IMG/VR virus record: IMGVR_UViG_3300048021_000332
Coordinates: 1 to 22,993 of that record
Length of the DNA: 22,993 nucleotides
From: a virus
Strand: one strand, 5' to 3'
The notes below the pieces were generated by a model that had not been told where the DNA came from, did no database searches, and saw only the letters and a list, made by a program, of their open reading frames with translations. Positions 1,483 to 22,993 of the stretch are shown here, one piece after another (the stretch's first letter is position 1; each line of letters begins with the position of its first letter). The translations under genes were made by a program, and so were the position numbers.

Positions 1483-3987
1483 ATGACAATTTGGACACAA
1501 CGATCAGGCAGCAAACTTGCACAACTTCAGGAACGTATTACTACTACAGTTCCATTACCAGTAGATTCTTTAGCTACTGTTAAATTACTTAGTGGCGAAC
1601 TGCCAAAAGGTATGAGGCTTAACGGAAACATTATCGAAGGTACTCCGTTTGAAGTAGCAAGAGATACAACTTACAGATTTGTGTTACGAGCAAAACTTGA
1701 CGCAGCAGTTGAAGATAGAACATATAATATTGTAGTACAAGGGCCAGACGAGCCGCTATGGATTACTAAAGAAGGTTTGTTAGACATTGGATCTAACAGC
1801 ACGTTTTATATCTTAGACAGCACTCCAGTTGAATACCAATTTCAAGTAATAGATAATGATACTAGCTCAGGACAAACACTAACATACTTCCTTGGTGCTG
1901 ATTCAGGTGAATTGCCACCAGGTATCACATTAACACGAGACGGTAGACTTATTGGTGTAGTTGATCCTGTACTTGCATTAGAAAAGAATGCACGTAGTGG
2001 ATTATATGACGAAAGTCAATTTGATAGAAACCCTTATGATTTTAGTGTGCAAAGCGCACAAGGCTTTGATAGTTTTTACTATGATATAACAATTTATGAT
2101 TTTGCAACACCAACACAAGTACCTAAAAAACTAAACCGATTTTATCAATTTATTGTAAGTGTAACCGACGGCGATACAACAGCACAGCGCACATTTAGAA
2201 TATACGTTGTAGGTGATGATTTCCTACGTGCAGATAACACAATTATGCAAGTTGGATCAGGTATCTTTAGTGCAGATAATACGCACATCAGAACACCAAT
2301 ATGGCTAACACCAAGTGACTTAGGTGTTCGTCGTGCAAACAACTACATTACATTATTCTTAGATATTGTTGACCCTAACAGTTTAACTGGTTACACATAT
2401 TACGAATTAAAGTCTACTAACGATGATAACAGTGTTAGTACACTTCCGCCTGGAATGTCCTTGGATGCACAAACAGGTGAAGTATCTGGCTTAGTACCTT
2501 ATCAGCCTGCTGTAACAAAGGAATATAAATTTACTGTAAATGCAGTACGTGTTACTGGTGGTAGTACTGAAAGCACTGAAACACAAAAAACTTTTAAAGT
2601 TTTACTGCTAGGCGAAGTCAATAGTAATATTAATTGGGTTACTCCAGATGATTTAGGCGATATTAATTCAAACTTTTTATCTACCTTAAGTGTTGTAGCA
2701 ACTAGTGATGTACCTGATGCATTTGTACTTTATTCATTAGAATCAGGATCACTTCCGCCAGGATTAGAATTAGCATATGATGGCGAAATAATTGGTAAGA
2801 TTAATAACTTTGGGTCGCCAACACAACTTGGTCTAACAGTATTTGATAGTGCAAACTTATCTCTAGACGGGAACACTACAACTGTTGATAGATCATATAC
2901 GTTTACAGTACGAGCTCAAGATCATTTTGGATATAGTGCAACTACTAGAACGTTCACTATAAAAGTAGCTGACCCGGATGACAAATTATATACAGATATA
3001 TACTTTTCACCTTTGCTAAAGACAGAACAAAGAATTACATTTAATAACTTTGTAAGAGATGATGCAATATTTCCAAACCAATTAATTTACAGACCAAATG
3101 ACCCTGCGTTCGGTCTTCCTAAAGATATTAAATTACTAGTGTATTCAGGTATAGAATCTAAACTAGCAGAACAATATGTTGCAGCGTCAGCTCTTACAAC
3201 CAAACGTAAAAATTATAAAATTGGTGATTTAAAAACAGCAGTTGCAAAGTTGCCTGGAACAAATGAAATAGTATACGAAGTAGTATATTTGGATGTTAAA
3301 GATCCTTACGAAAGTACTGGCAAAGTTGCAGAATCAATTACCATTAAGAATAATGCTAAAATTTTAGTTAACAGTGTAAGAACTGATCCAAGTGATCTTA
3401 AGTATGACACTAGCACATTAACTAGAATAGAAATAAATGCAAGAAACGGATTAATTTTTGTAGAACCTAATAGAAAAAGTTTAACTATAGGTACACGCCA
3501 AGGCGATGTTGAATGGGAATTTGGAACTGATATATACTTAGACACTAGAACAGATAGTGTAGAAATTACAACAAAAGGAACACCTAGCAATAACTTGGCT
3601 GCTAGACCTTCACCAGTAGAAAACACTATCCGTACTGATATAGATGCTATCAAAGTAAGTGACCCTAATAAAATTACAAAATATATCAGTAATATAAGTA
3701 ATGTTAGACGTAAGTTTAGTCAGCTAGGAAGAACTGAAAGAAACTTTTTACCGTTGTGGATGCGTACAGCACAACAAGATAGCATACAAGAACTAGGATA
3801 TACGTTGGCAATACCTCTTTGCTATTGTAAACCTGGCACAAGTGAAACTATTAAGGCTGCAATTAATTTTAGTCAATTTGACTACAGACAATTTGAGCTA
3901 GATATTGATAGATTCTTAATAGACAATACCGAAGGTGTTGGCGAACCTAAATACTTCGTATTTGCTAACTACGAGTTAAATATATAA
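1483..3987 (+). CDS. Large virion protein with Ig-like (He_PIG) repeats, tail fibre/baseplate-like
   Basis: An 834-residue protein with at least four copies of a putative Ig (He_PIG) signature: LPKGMRLNGNIIEGTP near residue 40, LPPGITLTRDGRLIG near 144, LPPGMSLDAQTGEVSG near 321 and LPPGLELAYDGEIIG near 424. Between them are beta-rich segments with YTFTVRAQD-type strands. The last 300 residues lack the repeat and may form the attachment or assembly domain. Ig-like repeats are common in phage tail and baseplate-decorating proteins and often bind surface glycans. The start has a GGAG site and a late-promoter motif. Its neighbours on both sides are fibre-like. It is probably the largest fibre or baseplate component here; a T4 gp number cannot be given. 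Confidence 0.75.
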   Translation: MTIWTQRSGSKLAQLQERITTTVPLPVDSLATVKLLSGELPKGMRLNGNIIEGTPFEVARDTTYRFVLRAKLDAAVEDRTYNIVVQGPDEPLWITKEGLLDIGSNSTFYILDSTPVEYQFQVIDNDTSSGQTLTYFLGADSGELPPGITLTRDGRLIGVVDPVLALEKNARSGLYDESQFDRNPYDFSVQSAQGFDSFYYDITIYDFATPTQVPKKLNRFYQFIVSVTDGDTTAQRTFRIYVVGDDFLRADNTIMQVGSGIFSADNTHIRTPIWLTPSDLGVRRANNYITLFLDIVDPNSLTGYTYYELKSTNDDNSVSTLPPGMSLDAQTGEVSGLVPYQPAVTKEYKFTVNAVRVTGGSTESTETQKTFKVLLLGEVNSNINWVTPDDLGDINSNFLSTLSVVATSDVPDAFVLYSLESGSLPPGLELAYDGEIIGKINNFGSPTQLGLTVFDSANLSLDGNTTTVDRSYTFTVRAQDHFGYSATTRTFTIKVADPDDKLYTDIYFSPLLKTEQRITFNNFVRDDAIFPNQLIYRPNDPAFGLPKDIKLLVYSGIESKLAEQYVAASALTTKRKNYKIGDLKTAVAKLPGTNEIVYEVVYLDVKDPYESTGKVAESITIKNNAKILVNSVRTDPSDLKYDTSTLTRIEINARNGLIFVEPNRKSLTIGTRQGDVEWEFGTDIYLDTRTDSVEITTKGTPSNNLAARPSPVENTIRTDIDAIKVSDPNKITKYISNISNVRRKFSQLGRTERNFLPLWMRTAQQDSIQELGYTLAIPLCYCKPGTSETIKAAINFSQFDYRQFELDIDRFLIDNTEGVGEPKYFVFANYELNI

Positions 3988-3995
3988 TAAATATC
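3986..3995 (+). promoter_or_regulatory. Late-promoter-like AATAAATATC
   Basis: The ATAAATA core at 3987-3993 overlaps the stop of the preceding gene. It sits 18 nt upstream of the ATG at 4012, with GGAG between, the same layout as at 1455. Confidence 0.55.
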
Positions 3996-4011
3996 TTTGG
4001 AGATAAAAACA

Positions 4012-4614
4012 ATGGCAAGTAATATAAACACAACAAATATTGATGTAGCGTATCCTGTCGCAGGACAAGATAACGATTCACAAGGGTTTAGAGATAACTT
4101 CTCAACAATTCAAAATAACTTTGTAGCATCAAAAGCAGAGATTGAAGCACTTCAATCAACAACAGCACAAGGTGTTACACACAATAGTGACGATAATCTA
4201 AATGATTTTAACGGAACTATTATTCAAGACGCTAGTTTAGATACAGTAACACAAGAAGCAACTGTACTTTCAGGAGTTAACAGTCAAACAGATGTTAACT
4301 TTACAAACGGGCACTATCAAGAAATTTCAGTAACAGCAGACGTAACACTACGTTTTGCACTATGGCCAGGCAACTTAAAGTACGGAAAGATCCGTGTAGG
4401 AATTACAGGTACTGGTAGTACTGTTGGTGGAGCTACAGATTCTGCACATAGAGTTACTTTGTCTACAGAAAATGCAGGCTCAATAAAGTATAGCCCAAAT
4501 TATCCTGCAAACTTAGACATTCCGGCATCTTCTAACCCAACTATTATTGATGTTTGGACTACTACTGGCGGTGCTGTTGTGTATGTAGAATACATTGGAC
4601 AGTTTACACCGTAA
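4012..4614 (+). CDS. Fibre-like virion structural protein
   Basis: A 200-residue protein starting MASNINTTNIDVAYPV. The ATG at 4012 is chosen because TTTGGAG lies just upstream; the in-frame TTG at 3997 would place that ribosome site inside the gene. Residues 20-45 hold SQGFRDNFSTIQNNF, matching the N-terminal module of the protein at 738. The rest is Thr/Asn/Gly-rich and beta-like, ending near VYVEYIGQFTP. There are no enzyme motifs. It is probably a short fibre or baseplate-linked protein that shares a docking module with its neighbour. It is translationally coupled by TAATG to the next gene. Confidence 0.65.
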   Translation: MASNINTTNIDVAYPVAGQDNDSQGFRDNFSTIQNNFVASKAEIEALQSTTAQGVTHNSDDNLNDFNGTIIQDASLDTVTQEATVLSGVNSQTDVNFTNGHYQEISVTADVTLRFALWPGNLKYGKIRVGITGTGSTVGGATDSAHRVTLSTENAGSIKYSPNYPANLDIPASSNPTIIDVWTTTGGAVVYVEYIGQFTP

Positions 4615-4850
4615 TGTTTAACCCACTAGTAGATTCATTTGATGCGTTATCTAATAACGAAATTGAACAAACTATTAGTTCTTTATCTCGTAAGTATTTT
4701 CAAACGCACAATCCTGATGTTCAAATGCAAATATCAGCAATATTAGAAATGTACAAGTCAGAGATGAGAGTACGCATTGCTAAAGGCTCACAACAACAAA
4801 GTCAAGATAATGGCGATAATTCTCTTGACAATCTAATTAATATCAGTTAA
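4614..4850 (+). CDS. Small conserved phage protein, unknown function
   Basis: A 78-residue protein, MFNPLVDSF..., predicted to be largely helical (NNEIEQTISSLSRKYF, then MQISAILEMYKSEMRVRI), with a Gln/Asn/Asp-rich tail. The ATG at 4614 overlaps the previous stop as TAATG, so it is probably translated by coupling; no Shine-Dalgarno is seen. Starting further upstream at 4554 would overlap the previous gene by 60 nt. Similar short helical proteins occur beside structural genes in marine T4-like phages, as far as I recall. No function can be read from the sequence. Confidence 0.6.
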   Translation: MFNPLVDSFDALSNNEIEQTISSLSRKYFQTHNPDVQMQISAILEMYKSEMRVRIAKGSQQQSQDNGDNSLDNLINIS

Positions 4851-4855
4851 AATAC
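4847..4855 (+). promoter_or_regulatory. Candidate late promoter giving a leaderless transcript (weak match)
   Basis: TTAAAATAC, with the 7-mer TAAAATA at 4848-4854 ending exactly 5 nt (CTTGT) before the ATG at 4860. It is a poorer match to ATAAATA than the other sites, but the spacing is the same as at 16501-16507 and 20286-20292, and there is no Shine-Dalgarno. Confidence 0.35.
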
Positions 4856-4859
4856 TTGT

Positions 4860-5390
4860 ATGCTTATGAAAACTGACGACTTAGGAATACCACGATTCTC
4901 TAATAAAGATCTAGTAGATATGATCTATAGTGGCAATGTTGAAAAATGTCACGTAGTTCTATGCGAAGAATCAGATGATGTAGATAAGTTCAATGTCGCT
5001 ATGGAAGAACAAGGCTTTGATAAACTACAAAAATATATTCCATTAGATGTAGATCAACAAACTTTTGACGGTGTATGTCAAAGTGAATGGTTTATGCCTG
5101 ATGAATACAAAGACATCAATGTATATGAATATGTACTAGGCAAAGCAAAAACACCCTGCCCACAACACGTACAAGATCGTATATGGGAAGAAATGGAAGC
5201 ATATGGCGAACGTGATATGCATAATCTATTACGCTATATGATTTATCTTGTAGACTTTATGCGTGAGAATAACATTGTATGGGGTGTAGGTAGAGGTAGC
5301 TCTGTAGCATCATATGTGCTATATTTAATAGGTGTACACAAGATTAATTCAATCCAGTTTGGCCTGGATTGGCGAGAGTTCTTGAGATAA
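4860..5390 (+). CDS. DNA polymerase III alpha (DnaE/PolC)-like fragment lacking catalytic aspartates
   Basis: A 176-residue protein. Residues 118-176 align by eye with the palm entry of bacterial DnaE. A helical stretch (YMIYLVDFMRENNI) leads into GVGRGSSVASYVLYLIG (142-158), equivalent to the DnaE GPGRGSGAGSLVAYALG nucleotide-binding motif. INSIQFGLDWREFLR then matches the DPLEFDLLFERFL region. In DnaE the catalytic PDFDVDF follows within about ten residues, but here the gene ends at FLR. Polymerase activity is therefore not expected. It could bind DNA, a nucleotide or a host replisome partner. The N-terminal 110 residues are unrecognised. There is no ribosome site, and a second ATG occurs at 4866. 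Confidence is high for the similarity and low for any role. Confidence 0.7.
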   Translation: MLMKTDDLGIPRFSNKDLVDMIYSGNVEKCHVVLCEESDDVDKFNVAMEEQGFDKLQKYIPLDVDQQTFDGVCQSEWFMPDEYKDINVYEYVLGKAKTPCPQHVQDRIWEEMEAYGERDMHNLLRYMIYLVDFMRENNIVWGVGRGSSVASYVLYLIGVHKINSIQFGLDWREFLR

Positions 5391-6576: not shown

Positions 6577-6653
6577 GCGGCTGTAGCTCAGCTGGATAGA
6601 GCACAAGTTTGCGGAACTTGAGGTCAGGGGTTCGACTCCCTTCAGCCGCGCCA
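6577..6653 (+). tRNA. tRNA-Arg, anticodon GCG
   Basis: A 77-nt cloverleaf with encoded CCA. The acceptor stem GCGGCTG/CAGCCGC is fully paired, the D arm is GCTC/GAGC with GG, and the anticodon stem is CAAGT/ACTTG. The loop TTGCGGA gives anticodon GCG. The variable loop is 5 nt and the T arm AGGGG/CCCTT encloses TTCGACT. A20, C35 and the G73 discriminator agree with arginine identity. It reads CGC and CGU. It has its own sigma70 promoter immediately upstream and is probably co-transcribed with the exonuclease gene 15 nt downstream. Confidence 0.95.
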
Positions 6654-16498: not shown

Positions 16499-16508
16499 CG
16501 ATAAGTAA
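16499..16508 (+). promoter_or_regulatory. Candidate late promoter giving a leaderless transcript, CGATAAGTAA
   Basis: CGATAAGTAA differs from CGATAAATAA (12824) at one base. The 7-mer ATAAGTA ends at 16507, exactly 5 nt (ATTGT) before the ATG at 16513. With T4 late-promoter geometry the transcript would start at or next to that ATG. The downstream gene has no Shine-Dalgarno. Confidence 0.45.
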
Positions 16509-16512
16509 TTGT

Positions 16513-17349
16513 ATGGACTATTATTCTATTCTTGGTGTTCCTAAAAACGCTTCCGACAAAGATTTAAAGAGCGCATACAAAAAATTAAGTATGCAACACC
16601 ATCCTGACCGAGGTGGTAGCGAAGACAAATTCAAACAAGTTAACGAAGCATATAGTACACTAAAAGATCCGCACAAGCGTGGTATGTATGACCATCAACA
16701 AAATGGTGGTGGACAAGGATTTAATTTTAATACTAGTAATATGGGAGGCGGACATCCGTTTGAAGATATCTTTAGTTCAATGTTTGGCGGCAATCCACAT
16801 ATGAGGCAGCAACGTCAACAACGCAATAGAGATGTTCAACTACACTATAAACTTAACTTAGAAGATTGCTGGGCTGGCAAAATGTTAAACTTACAATATA
16901 CTCTACCTAGTGGACGACAAGAGCAAGTAGAAATAAGAATACCGCCTGGAGTTCAAAGCGGTGATAATGTAAGTATTAGAGGATTTGGTGATGATAGTAT
17001 TCCAGGAGCTCCAAGAGGAAACTTGCTCGTAGGCATTACTATTTTAAAACCAAAAGGATGGGACGTTCACGGCCTTGATCTAATATATAGTATTAACGTT
17101 AGCGTAATAGATTTAATACTAGGATGCGATGTTATTATAAACAGTCCAGAAAAAAGAATGGTAAATCTTAAAGTTCCAAAAGGAACTAATCCAGATACTA
17201 CGTTTAGTATTAACGGATACGGTTTGCCTGACAACAGAACAGGACGAAGGGGATCTATTTTTGTAAAAGTAAAAGGCACAACACCAACAATAAATGACGA
17301 AACACTAGAACATCAAATAAAGGCACTTAAAGAAAAGATTGAAAAATAA
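16513..17349 (+). CDS. dnaJ: Type II DnaJ/CbpA-like J-domain co-chaperone
   Basis: A 278-residue J-protein. The J-domain (1-64) has the HPD motif at 30-32 (MQHHPDRGG). A Gly/Phe-rich linker follows (65-93), then C-terminal substrate-binding domains I and II (about 105-262, with RDVQLHYKLNLEDCWAG, IRIPPGVQSGDN, KGWDVHGLDLIY, LKVPKGTNPDT). The four CxxCxGxG zinc repeats of type I DnaJ are absent, so it is CbpA-like. J-proteins deliver substrates to Hsp70 and stimulate its ATPase; it would have to recruit host DnaK. No Shine-Dalgarno is seen and a late-like motif abuts the start. clpA follows after 62 nt. Confidence 0.9.
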   Translation: MDYYSILGVPKNASDKDLKSAYKKLSMQHHPDRGGSEDKFKQVNEAYSTLKDPHKRGMYDHQQNGGGQGFNFNTSNMGGGHPFEDIFSSMFGGNPHMRQQRQQRNRDVQLHYKLNLEDCWAGKMLNLQYTLPSGRQEQVEIRIPPGVQSGDNVSIRGFGDDSIPGAPRGNLLVGITILKPKGWDVHGLDLIYSINVSVIDLILGCDVIINSPEKRMVNLKVPKGTNPDTTFSINGYGLPDNRTGRRGSIFVKVKGTTPTINDETLEHQIKALKEKIEK

Positions 17350-17411: not shown

Positions 17412-19661
17412 ATGGTAGAACCCAGTAAAGAATTACAGCAAGTATTTGATAAGAGTATTAGAGATGCTAAAAAGTTGCAACACGAGTTTGTAACACTTGA
17501 ACATTTATTGTTTTCAATGATGTGTTCAGAGGGCTTTCAAAAACTTCTAGGCGGATACGGTGCAGATGTAGATTATATTAAGAGCAATCTTGAACATCAC
17601 CTTAAAACTAACTGTGATGATTTAACTACAATTGAAACAAAATATAAGCCTAAGAAAACACAAGCTGTTGAGCGTGTTTTAAATAGAGCGTTTACACAAG
17701 TTCTATTTGCGGGTCGTCCAGACATTGAACTTAGTGATGTGCTGTTAAGCATACTGCACGAGAAGAAAAGTATGGCAAACTACTTTTTAGAAAAAGGCGG
17801 TGTAAAGAAAGAATCATTTGCAGAATATATTAGCAGTGAATTCGAAGCAGCTTATGAAGACGAAGAAATTTCTGGGGCAGCACAAAAAGCACTCAATGCG
17901 TTTACAACAAACTTAAACTCCGAAGTTACTAAAGGCAAAGTAGACCCAGTAATTGGACGCAGTGAAGAATTAGAACTTATTGCATTGGCATTAGGTCGAC
18001 GTAATAAAAACAACGCTATTTTAGTAGGCGATCCAGGCGTAGGTAAAACTGCTATTGCGGAAGGTCTTGCGTTTAATATTGTAAATGATAATGTTCCTGA
18101 TTTCTTAAAAGATTATGAAGTGTTTAATTTAGATATTGCGGCAATGCTTGCAGGATCAAAATACAGAGGCGACTTTGAAGAAAGACTAAAATTAGTTATT
18201 AATGGTCTTATGAAAAAAGGCAAGACTGTTTTGTTTATTGACGAAGCACATATGATTAACGGTGCAGGCGCAGGCAGCAAAGATAGTTCGACTGATATGG
18301 CTAATATGTTAAAGCCAGCGTTGAGCAAGGGTAACATTAAAGTAGTTGCAAGTACAACTTGGGACGAGTATCGCAAGCACTTTGAAAAGGATCGTGCATT
18401 GATGCGTCGATTCCAACGTGTAACTATTGATGAACCTAGTCGCGATGTGTCGGTTGATATTTTAATGGGTCTTAAAAAGTACTACGAAGACTATCACAAA
18501 ACTACTATTACTCAAGAAGCAATTGAGCAGGCTGTTGATTTGTCAATTAAATATCAAGCAGATAAAAAATTACCTGACAAAGCAATTGACTTAATTGACC
18601 AAGCGTGTTCACGTTTTAAAGTAAACAACATTGTAGATGACGGCAAAATTGTAACAGATAAAAACATTCAATTTGAGCTTTCTAAAGCAATTAAAATTAA
18701 TCAAGATACTATTGCACAAAAAGAAAGCGAAAGCCTTGCTAATCTAGAACACAATCTTAAGAGAGTTGTGTTTGGTCAAGACGAAGCACTTGAAAAACTT
18801 GTTGATAAAATTTATGTTAGCCAAGCAGGACTTAAAGAAGAAAACAAACCAATTGGTTCATTTGTGTTTATGGGTCCAACAGGTACAGGTAAAACTGAAA
18901 CTGCAAAACAACTTGCAGAACAATTAGGTGTAAATCTTGTACGCTTTGATATGAGTGAATATCAAGAAAAGCACAGTGTATCAAAACTTATTGGTTCACC
19001 TCCAGGTTATGTAGGACACGAAGATACTTCAGGACAGCTAATTGAAAAATTACAAGAAAATCCTGGATGTGTAATACTAATGGATGAGATTGAAAAAGCC
19101 CATCCAGACGTTTCACAAATCTTACTACAGATTATGGACAACGGAAAAATTACAGGCAGCAACGGCACTGAAGCAGATGCTCGTCAAAGTATTATTATTC
19201 TTACAACTAACTTAGGTGCAAAAGACGCTGAGAAAAACACTATTGGATTTAGTGATGAGTTTGAGAAAGAATACGAAGACGCAGAACTTAAAAAGTTCTT
19301 TAGTCCGGAGTTTAGAAACAGACTAGATGCAACAGTTACGTTTGCTAAACTAAGTAAAGAAGTAATGATTAAGATTGTTGGTAAGTTCTTGCTTGAACTT
19401 AAAGGTATGATCAAAGACAGAAGCGTAACTATTGATATTTCAGATGAAGCAATTGACTTCTTAGTTGATAAAGGGTTTGATCCTAAAATGGGTGCAAGAC
19501 CACTACAACGTGTAATTGACGATCAAGTTAAGCGTCCTCTATCTCGTGCTTTATTGTTTGGTGAATTGAAAAACGGCGGATCTGCACATATTGATGTAGT
19601 TGATGACAATCTTACTGTATTGTGTAAGGAAGCTGTAATTGAACAAGTACAAGACGCCTAA
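17412..19661 (+). CDS. clpA: ClpA-like AAA+ unfoldase
   Basis: A 749-residue protein (E. coli ClpA has 758). The N-domain (1-145) has [14 protein letters not shown]. The D1 module has Walker A GDPGVGKT (206-213) and Walker B VLFIDEAH. The D2 module has Walker A GPTGTGKT (488-495) and Walker [12 protein letters not shown]. There is no long coiled-coil middle domain, which excludes ClpB. Residues 611-613 are IGF, placed between TTNLGA and [10 protein letters not shown] exactly where ClpA carries the IGL ClpP-binding loop. It probably docks on host ClpP and redirects degradation; no phage ClpP is in the window. Its own sigma70 promoter and GAGGA precede it. The next gene overlaps its end. Confidence 0.92.
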
Positions 19662-20289
19662 ATTATTTTTTAACAAATACCCATACAAGCTAGTCTTCAA
19701 AACTATTTTTTCAAATTCGTTTAGAGGTAATGATCTAATATACATTAGAGAAATGTTAGATCATTACTTTCTACACCTTGCTGAAGGTAAGCCAATGTAC
19801 GTACAACTTTGGAGAGAACAGACTAGAGTATCTCCAGTTCAAGTGGCAGAAGCTCAAAGAATATACACTGCATTATCAAAAAATAAAGAGTATAAACTTA
19901 GAGTCGAACAAGGATATATCACTATATACTCTAAAGAAAGAGACTGGTTGTATGATCTAGGTGACGTACTAAATGCACAAGAGTGGTGGGAACCAGATAC
20001 TAAGTTAGAACCAGGTATTTTAGTAATGGGGCCAAAAATGGAAGGTTGGGAGTATAAAATTACGTTAGGATGTAATATTCCTGATGGATTTTATAACTGG
20101 GCTGTAGCAAATGCTGACAAATTAAAGGTAGGTAACAAATTGATGTCTATGATAGCTAGTAGACAACGTAACTTATCAGGTTATTATTTTTATGTACACA
20201 ATGACAAAATGTTAAATCTTGTGAGTCTAGTAATAGGACCAGCACTACAACGTGTCGACAAAATAGTAGTTGACAACGAATCTGCATAA
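19639..20289 (+). CDS. Unknown phage protein, probable TTG start
   Basis: A 216-residue protein from TTG 19639, overlapping clpA by 23 nt. This start is chosen because AAGGA lies 8 nt upstream (19626-19630). The next in-frame ATG (19753) has no ribosome site and would remove the Lys/Tyr-rich segment [17 protein letters not shown], which looks like an ordered beta region. Later segments include VQLWREQTRVSPVQVAEAQRIY, YITIYSKERDWLYDL and GYYFYVHNDKMLNLVSLVIG. There are no motifs I can assign. I recall loosely similar KYPYKL-type proteins in marine phages without function. Coupled to clpA, so possibly early. Confidence 0.55.
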   Translation: MNKYKTPKLFFNKYPYKLVFKTIFSNSFRGNDLIYIREMLDHYFLHLAEGKPMYVQLWREQTRVSPVQVAEAQRIYTALSKNKEYKLRVEQGYITIYSKERDWLYDLGDVLNAQEWWEPDTKLEPGILVMGPKMEGWEYKITLGCNIPDGFYNWAVANADKLKVGNKLMSMIASRQRNLSGYYFYVHNDKMLNLVSLVIGPALQRVDKIVVDNESA

Positions 20290-20293
20290 ATAT
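20284..20293 (+). promoter_or_regulatory. Candidate late promoter giving a leaderless transcript, GCATAAATAT
   Basis: An exact ATAAATA at 20286-20292 overlaps the previous stop codon and ends 5 nt (TATGT) before the ATG at 20298. No Shine-Dalgarno is present between promoter and start. The geometry matches 16499-16508. Confidence 0.45.
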
Positions 20294-20297
20294 ATGT

Positions 20298-20636
20298 ATG
20301 AGTAATAGTCAATCAATCTTAACAATAAATCAACACCCAGGAGATAGTACAACTGTGACTATCACGGGTGAAAAGTTTAAAGGCGACGGATACTACGGAC
20401 GTAGTGACGGTTTGCACAGCGTACAATACACCTACAGCGGTATAACAGGAGTAATCAGTATACAAGGCACTCTTGTAACTGCTCCTGTAGAAGCAGATTG
20501 GTTTGATGTACATACATATACAGCAACAGCAGAAACGGCAAGTAAAATTGCAAGTTTCACAGGCAACTATGTGTGGGTTAGGGCCAAAGTAGTTTATACT
20601 GACGGCACAATTAACTCGATAACACTAAATCATTAA
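20298..20636 (+). CDS. Predicted small virion structural protein
   Basis: A 112-residue, Thr/Val/Gly-rich, all-beta-looking protein: YSGITGVISIQGTLVTAPVE (46-65), then ADWFDVHTYT and SFTGNYVWVRAKVVYTDG (87-104). The strand pattern resembles small beta-sandwich virion proteins of marine T4-like phages, some of which have the same SxTGNYVWxRA segment as I recall. No signal peptide or catalytic motif. It follows a late-promoter-like motif with only 5 nt to the ATG and no ribosome site. The role (capsid or tail decoration) is inference. Confidence 0.6.
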   Translation: MSNSQSILTINQHPGDSTTVTITGEKFKGDGYYGRSDGLHSVQYTYSGITGVISIQGTLVTAPVEADWFDVHTYTATAETASKIASFTGNYVWVRAKVVYTDGTINSITLNH

Positions 20637-21544: not shown

Positions 21545-22993
21545 ATGTTACTTCGTGATCTCTTTGAATCCCCTAGAACTGCCGTAATGGCATTTGGGCG
21601 GATGAACCCTCCAACAATTGGACATCAAAAACTTGTAAACAAAATTAAAAGTATTGATGGAGATCACTATGTGTTTTTAACACACTCGCAAAAACCTAAA
21701 ACAGATCCATTAGCATTTGAAGATAAACTACGCTTTGCAAAGTTTTTCTTTCCTAATATAACAGTTGGACATCCAGAAGTTAAAACAATTATACAGGCAC
21801 TTCAAAAAATGGAGCAGCTTGGGTATAAAGATATAGTATATGTTGCAGGCAGCGATAGAGTTGCACAGTTTGAAAACTTATTAAACCAGTACAACGGCAA
21901 GCCTGACAAGTCTGGTAACATTGCATATAACTTTAACAGTATAAAAATTATAAGTGCAGGCGAACGTGATCCGGATGCAGATGGTGCAGAAGGTATGAGC
22001 GCAAGTAAAATGCGTCAAGCAGCGTTAGACGGTGATTTAGAGTCATTTAAGCAAGGAGTTCCGCAACAAGATTTAGCAGACGAAATGTTTGCCGCAGTAC
22101 GCAAAGGGTTAGGTGTTAAAGCTACTGCAACAGAAAGCATTGGATCAGATATTAACTTTCCGGGATTTGATAGCGACGAAGAAAAAAAGAAAAAGAAAAA
22201 GAAAAAGAAAAGTATAATTTCTAAACTTAAAAATTTAGTTGGTCTTGAAGAAGCAGCGACAAGAGCAGATGCTGATGCAATGATTGCAGCTATCAAAACA
22301 TTTCAACAGGCCGCAGGATTAAAAGCTGATGGTATTGTAGGTCCTAACACAAGAGCCAAAGCTGGCGAAATGATAAAGGATCCTGCACAAGCAAAAGTAG
22401 TCACAACATTACAGTCAGCAATTAAAGGTTTCCAAACAAAAGCAGGTATTACAGCAGACGGAAAAGTTGGACCGCAAACTATGGGGGCTGTTAATACAGC
22501 ACAAGGATTAGATGCTACAACAGGTAAGCCGGCAGCAGATACAGCAGCGCCAGCAGAACCAAAAGATGCTACAACACCGGCTGCAAAACCACAAACATCA
22601 GCAGATGCAACAGCAAAAGCAGGAGATGCACAAGTAACCGATCCTAATGCACAAAAAGCAAAACCAGAAGATCCGGGAAAAACAACACCTGTAAACAACA
22701 AACAAGCTACTGCAACAACAGAGCCTGTAGACACAGCAGCAACAGCAAACGATAAAGATGGTACACAGCCAGTAGAAGAGCCAGCAGCAACAAATACAGA
22801 ACCAAAAGCAGAGCCAGCAGCAACAGCTACAGAACCAGAACCAAAAGCAGATCCAGAAAAACCTAATTCAGGAAGCGAATATACGCTAGATGGAAAACCT
22901 GTATCACGTGACGAATATGAAAAGAAATTTGGTAAGGATTTGTCAGGTAGAACAAATGATTACAATAGACTTAAAAATCAAATCCAAGGATTA
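21545..22993 (+). CDS. Nucleotidyltransferase fused to two peptidoglycan-binding-like repeats, 3'-truncated
   Basis: Open to the window edge: 483 codons from the ATG at 21545, directly after a TAA, with AAGGA upstream. Residues 13-165 form a cytidylyltransferase/NMN-adenylyltransferase-like domain: GRMNPPTIGH (18-27, with the T/HxGH motif), VYVAGSDR near 100-107 and SASKMR (152-157, ISSTxxR type). A run of nine Lys near 214-222 follows. Two PG_binding_1-like repeats come next, at 246-277 (IKTFQQAAGLKADGIVGPNT) and 290-318 (IKGFQTKAGITADGKVGPQT). An Ala/Pro/Thr/Glu-rich linker (about 319-438) leads to a new charged region. Marine phage nucleotidyltransferases of unknown substrate exist; this fusion is unusual. 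Confidence 0.8.
   Translation, partial: MLLRDLFESPRTAVMAFGRMNPPTIGHQKLVNKIKSIDGDHYVFLTHSQKPKTDPLAFEDKLRFAKFFFPNITVGHPEVKTIIQALQKMEQLGYKDIVYVAGSDRVAQFENLLNQYNGKPDKSGNIAYNFNSIKIISAGERDPDADGAEGMSASKMRQAALDGDLESFKQGVPQQDLADEMFAAVRKGLGVKATATESIGSDINFPGFDSDEEKKKKKKKKKSIISKLKNLVGLEEAATRADADAMIAAIKTFQQAAGLKADGIVGPNTRAKAGEMIKDPAQAKVVTTLQSAIKGFQTKAGITADGKVGPQTMGAVNTAQGLDATTGKPAADTAAPAEPKDATTPAAKPQTSADATAKAGDAQVTDPNAQKAKPEDPGKTTPVNNKQATATTEPVDTAATANDKDGTQPVEEPAATNTEPKAEPAATATEPEPKADPEKPNSGSEYTLDGKPVSRDEYEKKFGKDLSGRTNDYNRLKNQIQGL
22778..22849 (+). repeat. Imperfect tandem coding repeat, 33 and 39 nt
   Basis: Unit 1 at 22778-22810 encodes EPAATNTEPKA and unit 2 at 22811-22849 encodes EPAATATEPEPKA. Both begin with the same 15 bases (22778-22792 and 22811-22825). 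They lie in the low-complexity linker of the nucleotidyltransferase fusion and suggest slippage-driven length change. Confidence 0.7.

Follow-up and report, generated by a model that had tools for sequence, protein, structure and literature searches.

In the textbook account of T4-type late expression, late mRNAs carry a leader with a Shine–Dalgarno (SD) sequence. The late promoters of T4 are served by gp55, gp33 and gp45 (PMC2988020, PMC7892883, PMC1524935), and the late box, TATAAATA, occupies positions −13 to −6, the base at −13 varying among T4-like phages (PMC1524935). In leaderless mRNAs, it matters how close the AUG lies to the 5′ end (PMC9031893). Such mRNAs are known, as are T4 late promoters; their systematic combination in the structural genes of lytic phages, to which the sequences described here point, would be the new element, and the open literature that we searched contained no account of T4-like phages with late genes that are leaderless.

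The window, by which we mean the whole stretch of DNA analysed, is an IMG/VR virus fragment of 22,993 b (37% G+C) belonging to the T4 superfamily. The features around its small virion gene are as follows.

20285–20292, + strand: T4-type late promoter octamer, CATAAATA, predicted to occupy −13 to −6; the offset is kept in the gene family
20287–20289, + strand: stop codon TAA of the upstream ORF (19639–20289 in the ORF list), inside the promoter motif
20293–20297, + strand: 5-nt spacer TATGT, predicted −5 to −1; the T at −1 is conserved in the family (1.35 bits)
20298–20636, + strand: CDS of a small virion structural protein (112 aa, β-sandwich), predicted to be leaderless, with the A of the ATG as +1

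A sequence-only reading of this DNA had described ATAAATA at 20286–20292, followed by the spacer TATGT and an ATG at 20298, with no ribosome site in between and a gene of structural appearance. The window reads exactly so; no SD-like sequence lies between CATAAATA and the ATG, and the product matches phrog_14467 (virion structural protein), its homolog in the phage PA5oct (∼29–32% identical) being annotated as structural by ESI-MS/MS. The product is predicted to fold as a β-sandwich (pLDDT 89) and, in a structure search, resembles phage virion proteins and carbohydrate-binding modules, with virion proteins among the viral matches; as to specific function, the search returned just a generic carbohydrate-binding-like β-sandwich. 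The gene is therefore likely, from its homologies, to be late and structural. The strict TATAAATA has no match anywhere in the window; the TATAAATA-like octamer is present there in the form CATAAATA, and the consensus of the clade is GATAAATA.

We consider it highly probable that CATAAATA at 20285–20292 acts as a gp55-type late promoter setting +1 on A20298, with a predicted leaderless, SD-less late mRNA as its product, because a T4 box at −13 to −6 followed by a 5-nt spacer places +1 on the A of the AUG. From the sequence we infer the actual +1, the late timing and leaderless initiation by host ribosomes as follows. A gp55-like late sigma factor of the phage would recognise CATAAATA, transcription would begin at the A of the ATG at 20298 to give a late mRNA with neither 5′ leader nor SD, and ribosomes would start at the 5′-terminal AUG, as they do in known systems with either the intact 70S ribosome or a 30S–IF2 complex. 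The reading rests on the motif and the precision of its spacing, on its conservation, on the lack of an SD, on the near-exclusive use of AUG and on a gp55 homolog encoded by a large contig from a relative. Read-through from clpA may provide an additional, SD-less transcript over the 20298 gene and, because read-through transcripts offer no SD, a likely consequence is that translation would depend on the firing of the gene's own promoter. For some of its late genes, T4 meets a comparable problem with RNA hairpins (PMC3014915).

The layout is conserved among homologs of the gene. IMG/VR yielded 118 relatives of the 20298 protein, from which 80 loci were kept; in nearly all of them GATAAATA stands exactly 5 nt ahead of the homologous ATG. 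Collapsing identical 40-nt upstream contexts left 51 distinct ones. NATAAATA stands exactly 5 nt before the ATG in 43 of these 51 contexts; the motif at this offset reads GATAAATA or CATAAATA, the upstream consensus of the family being GATAAATA-GTTRT-ATG, and the column information rises steeply over −13 to −6 and at −1. Among the eight deviating contexts, the spacer is 4 nt in two, 6 nt in one and 7 nt in three; one of the remaining contexts is without the motif, and the other (L073) is without the motif but has an SD-like AAGGA.

Motif statistics confined to the window are underpowered. HTAARTA-N5-ATG occurs twice in the whole window, compared with 0.89 expected in shuffles, and 22 of 100 shuffles reach two, a plain scan that is not significant. 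Both matches are gene starts, for which ∼0.014 would be expected over 33 starts (P(≥2) ∼1e-4, a post-hoc figure). The genome-wide scan that the original reading offered as its check came out in favour of that reading when run on relatives, where there is a strong excess at exactly 5 nt. In nine relative contigs (998 kb), we measured the distance from each of 116 GATAAATA sites to the ORF-opening ATG and found it to be bimodal: 23 sites have a distance of exactly 5 nt, and a second, broad group lies at 15–32 nt, in whose genes SDs are common; the other short distances are sparsely occupied (five sites at 4 nt, three at 8 nt and none or one at most others below 15 nt). Other NATAAATA sites on these contigs contribute 13 at 5 nt, and each of the nine contigs adds 3–8 NATAAATA sites. 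The 5-nt spike stands above background at P ∼5e-28, a value that overstates independence because the contigs are related, and a control with the reverse-complement motif was flat in the same nine contigs, with no 5-nt spike. Among hexamers upstream of ATGs that are not SDs, TAAATA with its last base at −6 ranks first (55 versus 5.1 per offset). The strict leaderless-type layout is found at 50 genes of 26 families in the nine contigs, including those for short-tail-fibre-like, gp10-like and virion structural proteins, and a terminase large subunit gene is among those preceded by a relaxed form of the motif.

The promoter-proximal form of the late layout can be written as GATAAATAGTTGT-ATG. Across IMG/VR, GATAAATAGTTRTATG occurs in at least 120 stretches and, among the matches listed, 100 of 122 open ORFs of at least 100 aa, whereas a control in which the spacing was lengthened by two bases matched 49 stretches altogether, with 17 ORFs of that size. 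The families found at GATAAATAGTTRTATG among the matches listed include the head–tail adaptor Ad2, tail tube, DNA end protector, terminase and several virion structural proteins. As far as functions can be assigned, the leaderless-type sites mostly precede structural genes, with neck, tail-tube, baseplate, terminase and DNA-end-protector families represented.

The starts at these sites show two properties, both as expected of leaderless mRNAs. An SD is absent from 41 of 50 leaderless-type starts, compared with 18 of 112 leadered late genes (Fisher 8e-16; at random positions it is absent from 92%), and the start codons at a distance of 5 nt comprise 49 ATG, no GTG and one TTG, compared with a ratio of 386:55:53 in genes with an SD (P 1.6e-4). 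Leadered late promoters within the window provide the contrast.

708–727, + strand: leadered late promoter GATAAATA (708–715) with SD GGAG (724–727), before the ATG at 738
1456–1473, + strand: leadered late promoter GATAAATA (1456–1463) with SD GGAG (1470–1473), before the ATG at 1483
3986–4002, + strand: leadered late promoter AATAAATA (3986–3993) with SD GGAG (3999–4002), before the ATG at 4012

After leadered GATAAATA, the fifth base favours T (36 of 67) and the sixth favours A (41 of 67), a preference that fits transcription beginning at this same point, with T at −1 and A at +1.

The sequence-only reading had also placed the 20298 gene in a shared layout with two other sites, at 16499 and 4847. 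The corresponding features of the window, together with a tRNA gene that lies between them, are listed here.

4825–4853, + strand: σ70-type promoter TTGACA-N17-TAAAAT, with 6 nt between the −10 and the ATG at 4860 (the '4847' site)
4860–5390, + strand: gene for a DNA polymerase III α-like protein (phrog_11127), predicted to be leaderless from the σ70 promoter
6577–6653, + strand: tRNA-Arg (anticodon gcg)
16500–16507, + strand: GATAAGTA, promoter of dnaJ in leaderless position, a late variant or of extended −10 type
16513–17349, + strand: dnaJ (DnaJ and DnaJ_C; PF00226, PF01556), with a predicted leaderless start

The first of the two shares the layout: the sequence before dnaJ reads GATAAGTA-ATTGT-ATG, and the start codon at 16513 is secure because the J domain begins at residue 2. 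A late-like motif lies 5 nt from the ATG in 33 of 43 distinct dnaJ contexts, being exactly GATAAGTA in 22, and nearly all of the other ten have a consensus-like σ70 promoter with its −10 ∼6 nt from the ATG. Between dnaJ orthologs (L011, L013, L024, L034 and L037), GATAAGTA-N5-ATG is exchanged for TTGACA-17-TATAAT-6-ATG with the leaderless position kept, and this change of promoter type at an unchanged position suggests that the position itself is selected. A conserved TGC just 5′ of GATAAGTA at dnaJ resembles an extended −10, and GATAAGTA is weakly enriched at leadered positions in the nine contigs; the GATAAGTA sites as a whole may be late promoters, or that at dnaJ may be of the extended −10 type, and dnaJ itself may not be late. 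The 4847 element, on the other hand, had to be rejected as a third late site. It reads TTGACA-N17-TAAAAT-ACTTGT-ATG, and the arrangement TTGACA-N17-(−10)-N6-ATG is kept, with variable −10 hexamers, in 80 of 80 homologs fetched of the 4860 gene, a conservation that could be partly coding since the TTGACA shares bases with the 3′ end of the preceding coding sequence. It is a σ70-type promoter in leaderless position and probably not late. Predicted leaderless starts of the σ70 type form a genome-wide class in the clade: the distance from the −10 to the ATG peaks sharply at exactly 6 nt (22 versus ∼2 per offset), and no such spike was found in T4, S-PM2, RaK2 or PA5oct. Because late and σ70-type promoters both abut start codons, leaderless starts would span two promoter classes, and the 20298 gene is, by this prediction, a member of a wider class in marine T4-superfamily phages. 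The earlier suggestion of a class of leaderless late genes gains support from the 5-nt spike, the conservation in homologs, the SD-free starts and the mostly structural nature of the genes.

The motif contains the upstream stop codon (20287–20289), which stands 8 nt from the ATG, and for 44 of the 50 leaderless-type genes another gene ends no more than 50 nt upstream (median 17 nt), often with the stop 4–8 nt before the ATG, as might be seen if ribosomes ending the upstream ORF re-initiated at 20298 and TAAATA merely marked the gene junction. However, the distance from the upstream stop ranges from 4 to 372 nt while that from motif to ATG is constant at 5, some upstream neighbours lie on the opposite strand, the octamer is the T4 late box and is also found 15–32 nt upstream of genes with an SD, and a similar stop-containing motif shows no spike (TAAAATA, with four sites at 5 nt and four at 12 nt). 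The variable stop distance rules out translational coupling as the whole explanation, which we regard as improbable, although it may assist and contribute at such junctions. We give somewhat less weight again to the idea that TAAATA near the AUG is an element of AT-rich, SD-independent initiation on longer read-through mRNAs, as in hosts with few SDs. The leaderless-type starts do lack an SD, and 486 of 1038 other genes have none at their first ATG, a count that is partly an artefact of crude start choice, but the octamer also stands 15–32 nt ahead of starts that have an SD, a position in which it cannot serve translation, the σ70 promoters have a matching spike of their own at 6 nt, and dnaJ swaps its promoter type with the position unchanged.

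As the start codons here are predicted, the true start might instead lie downstream, with its own SD and an ordinary leader. This is very unlikely, given that conservation among homologs of the 20298 protein begins at residue 4 (S4 invariant, I7 near-invariant), that the J domain of DnaJ runs from residue 2 and that genes at such sites in the phage HTVC008M share their starts with the deposited annotation. A chance match in AT-rich DNA would agree with the non-significant scan of the window, but it is refuted by the conservation across homologs that are 50–80% identical and by the sharp spacing spike, and we give it almost no credence.

The layout that we read as a late promoter abutting the start codon, NATAAATA at 5 nt from an ORF-opening ATG, was also counted in other phages, giving 0/65 in T4, 0/38 in Syn9, 0/66 in RaK2, 1/59 in S-PM2, 4/145 in PA5oct and 9/45 in HTVC008M. 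The value for T4 agrees with the original statement that the layout is not typical of that phage. A gp55 homolog is present in the relatives G001 (E 1.4e-75) and G003, that is, in 2 of 14 clade contigs, all of which are fragments, as is the 23-kb window, and also in HTVC008M and PA5oct. The 5-nt sites of HTVC008M precede genes for gp25-like and gp48-like baseplate proteins, the tape measure and the DNA end protector, and seven of the nine are annotated starts in the deposited annotation (the first 50 kb covers seven). Mosig and Melnitz, close cultured relatives of HTVC008M, are absent among the matches listed. In the pelagimyophage gp25-like gene (L480–L559), distinct contexts carry a TATAAATA-type box ∼5–8 nt before the ATG; among homologs of the HTVC008M gene, this late-type box lies at exactly 5 nt in 15 of 40 distinct contexts. 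The looser spacing at gp25 means that strict zero-leader spacing is not universal, and some transcripts may carry leaders of 1–3 nt. Late-promoter prediction was reported to be unsuccessful in pelagimyophages (PMC7029224), and boxes so near the ATG may help to explain why standard methods did not recover these promoters.

Some further observations were made on the window and its relatives. An N-terminal tag, M-x-[LI]-R-[ED]-[LIF], is common to different proteins (at 21545 in the window; relatives in G001–G012), with 27 N-terminal and two internal matches, some of the proteins being homologous to each other. It is reminiscent of the T4 capsid-targeting sequence, and the proteins that bear it are possibly packaged in the head. 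A 95-aa cysteine-containing family (G004, G005, G010 and G012) keeps TTATAATCTTAATGTAAATA-N5-ATG at its gene starts, and other contigs show a comparable arrangement. The ribosomal protein bS21 is phage-encoded in G002, G005, G011, HTVC008M and PA5oct; we considered it as a companion of leaderless translation and set the idea aside, as its occurrence in 3 of 15 clade records, many of them partial contigs, and in the two other phages shows no clear link.

Rare in classical T4, the layout recurs at numerous structural genes across a large marine phage group, a widespread branch that appears to put many of its structural genes on 5′-terminal AUGs. If this is true, gene-start and promoter prediction would change for abundant ocean viruses, which would also offer a natural system for the handling of heavy leaderless translation by host ribosomes and for the gating of late genes. 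We raise only tentatively, and as something we would not yet bet on, the possibility that leaderless mRNA is a general strategy in this large marine T4-superfamily group, across gp55-type and σ70-type promoters, with translation dependent on a gene's own promoter and SD-less read-through copies silent, instead of the hairpins of T4.

In comparison with known systems, the locus is like T4 in having a TATAAATA-type octamer at a predicted −13 to −6, with no −35 element required, and a gp55 homolog in its relatives; it is unlike T4 in that the ORF-opening ATGs of that phage never have NATAAATA at 5 nt, the distances being 12–41 nt, with room for an SD. HTVC008M, a T4-like Pelagibacter phage with a SAR11 host, shares the 5-nt spike but is of a different lineage. 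The synteny of PhoH, two structural genes, dnaJ, clpA and the small structural gene is shared with the Pseudomonas jumbo phage PA5oct, whose structural gene, unlike that of the window, is leadered, with GATAAATA ∼31 nt upstream and an SD-like AGAGG. Finally, the locus resembles lambda cI and the leaderless genes of mycobacteria in its 5′-terminal AUG, here predicted, and in the absence of an SD (PMC9031893, PMC4633059), but it differs from both in that the predicted leaderless starts belong to a recurring group of structural genes in lytic phages, under a phage late sigma factor.
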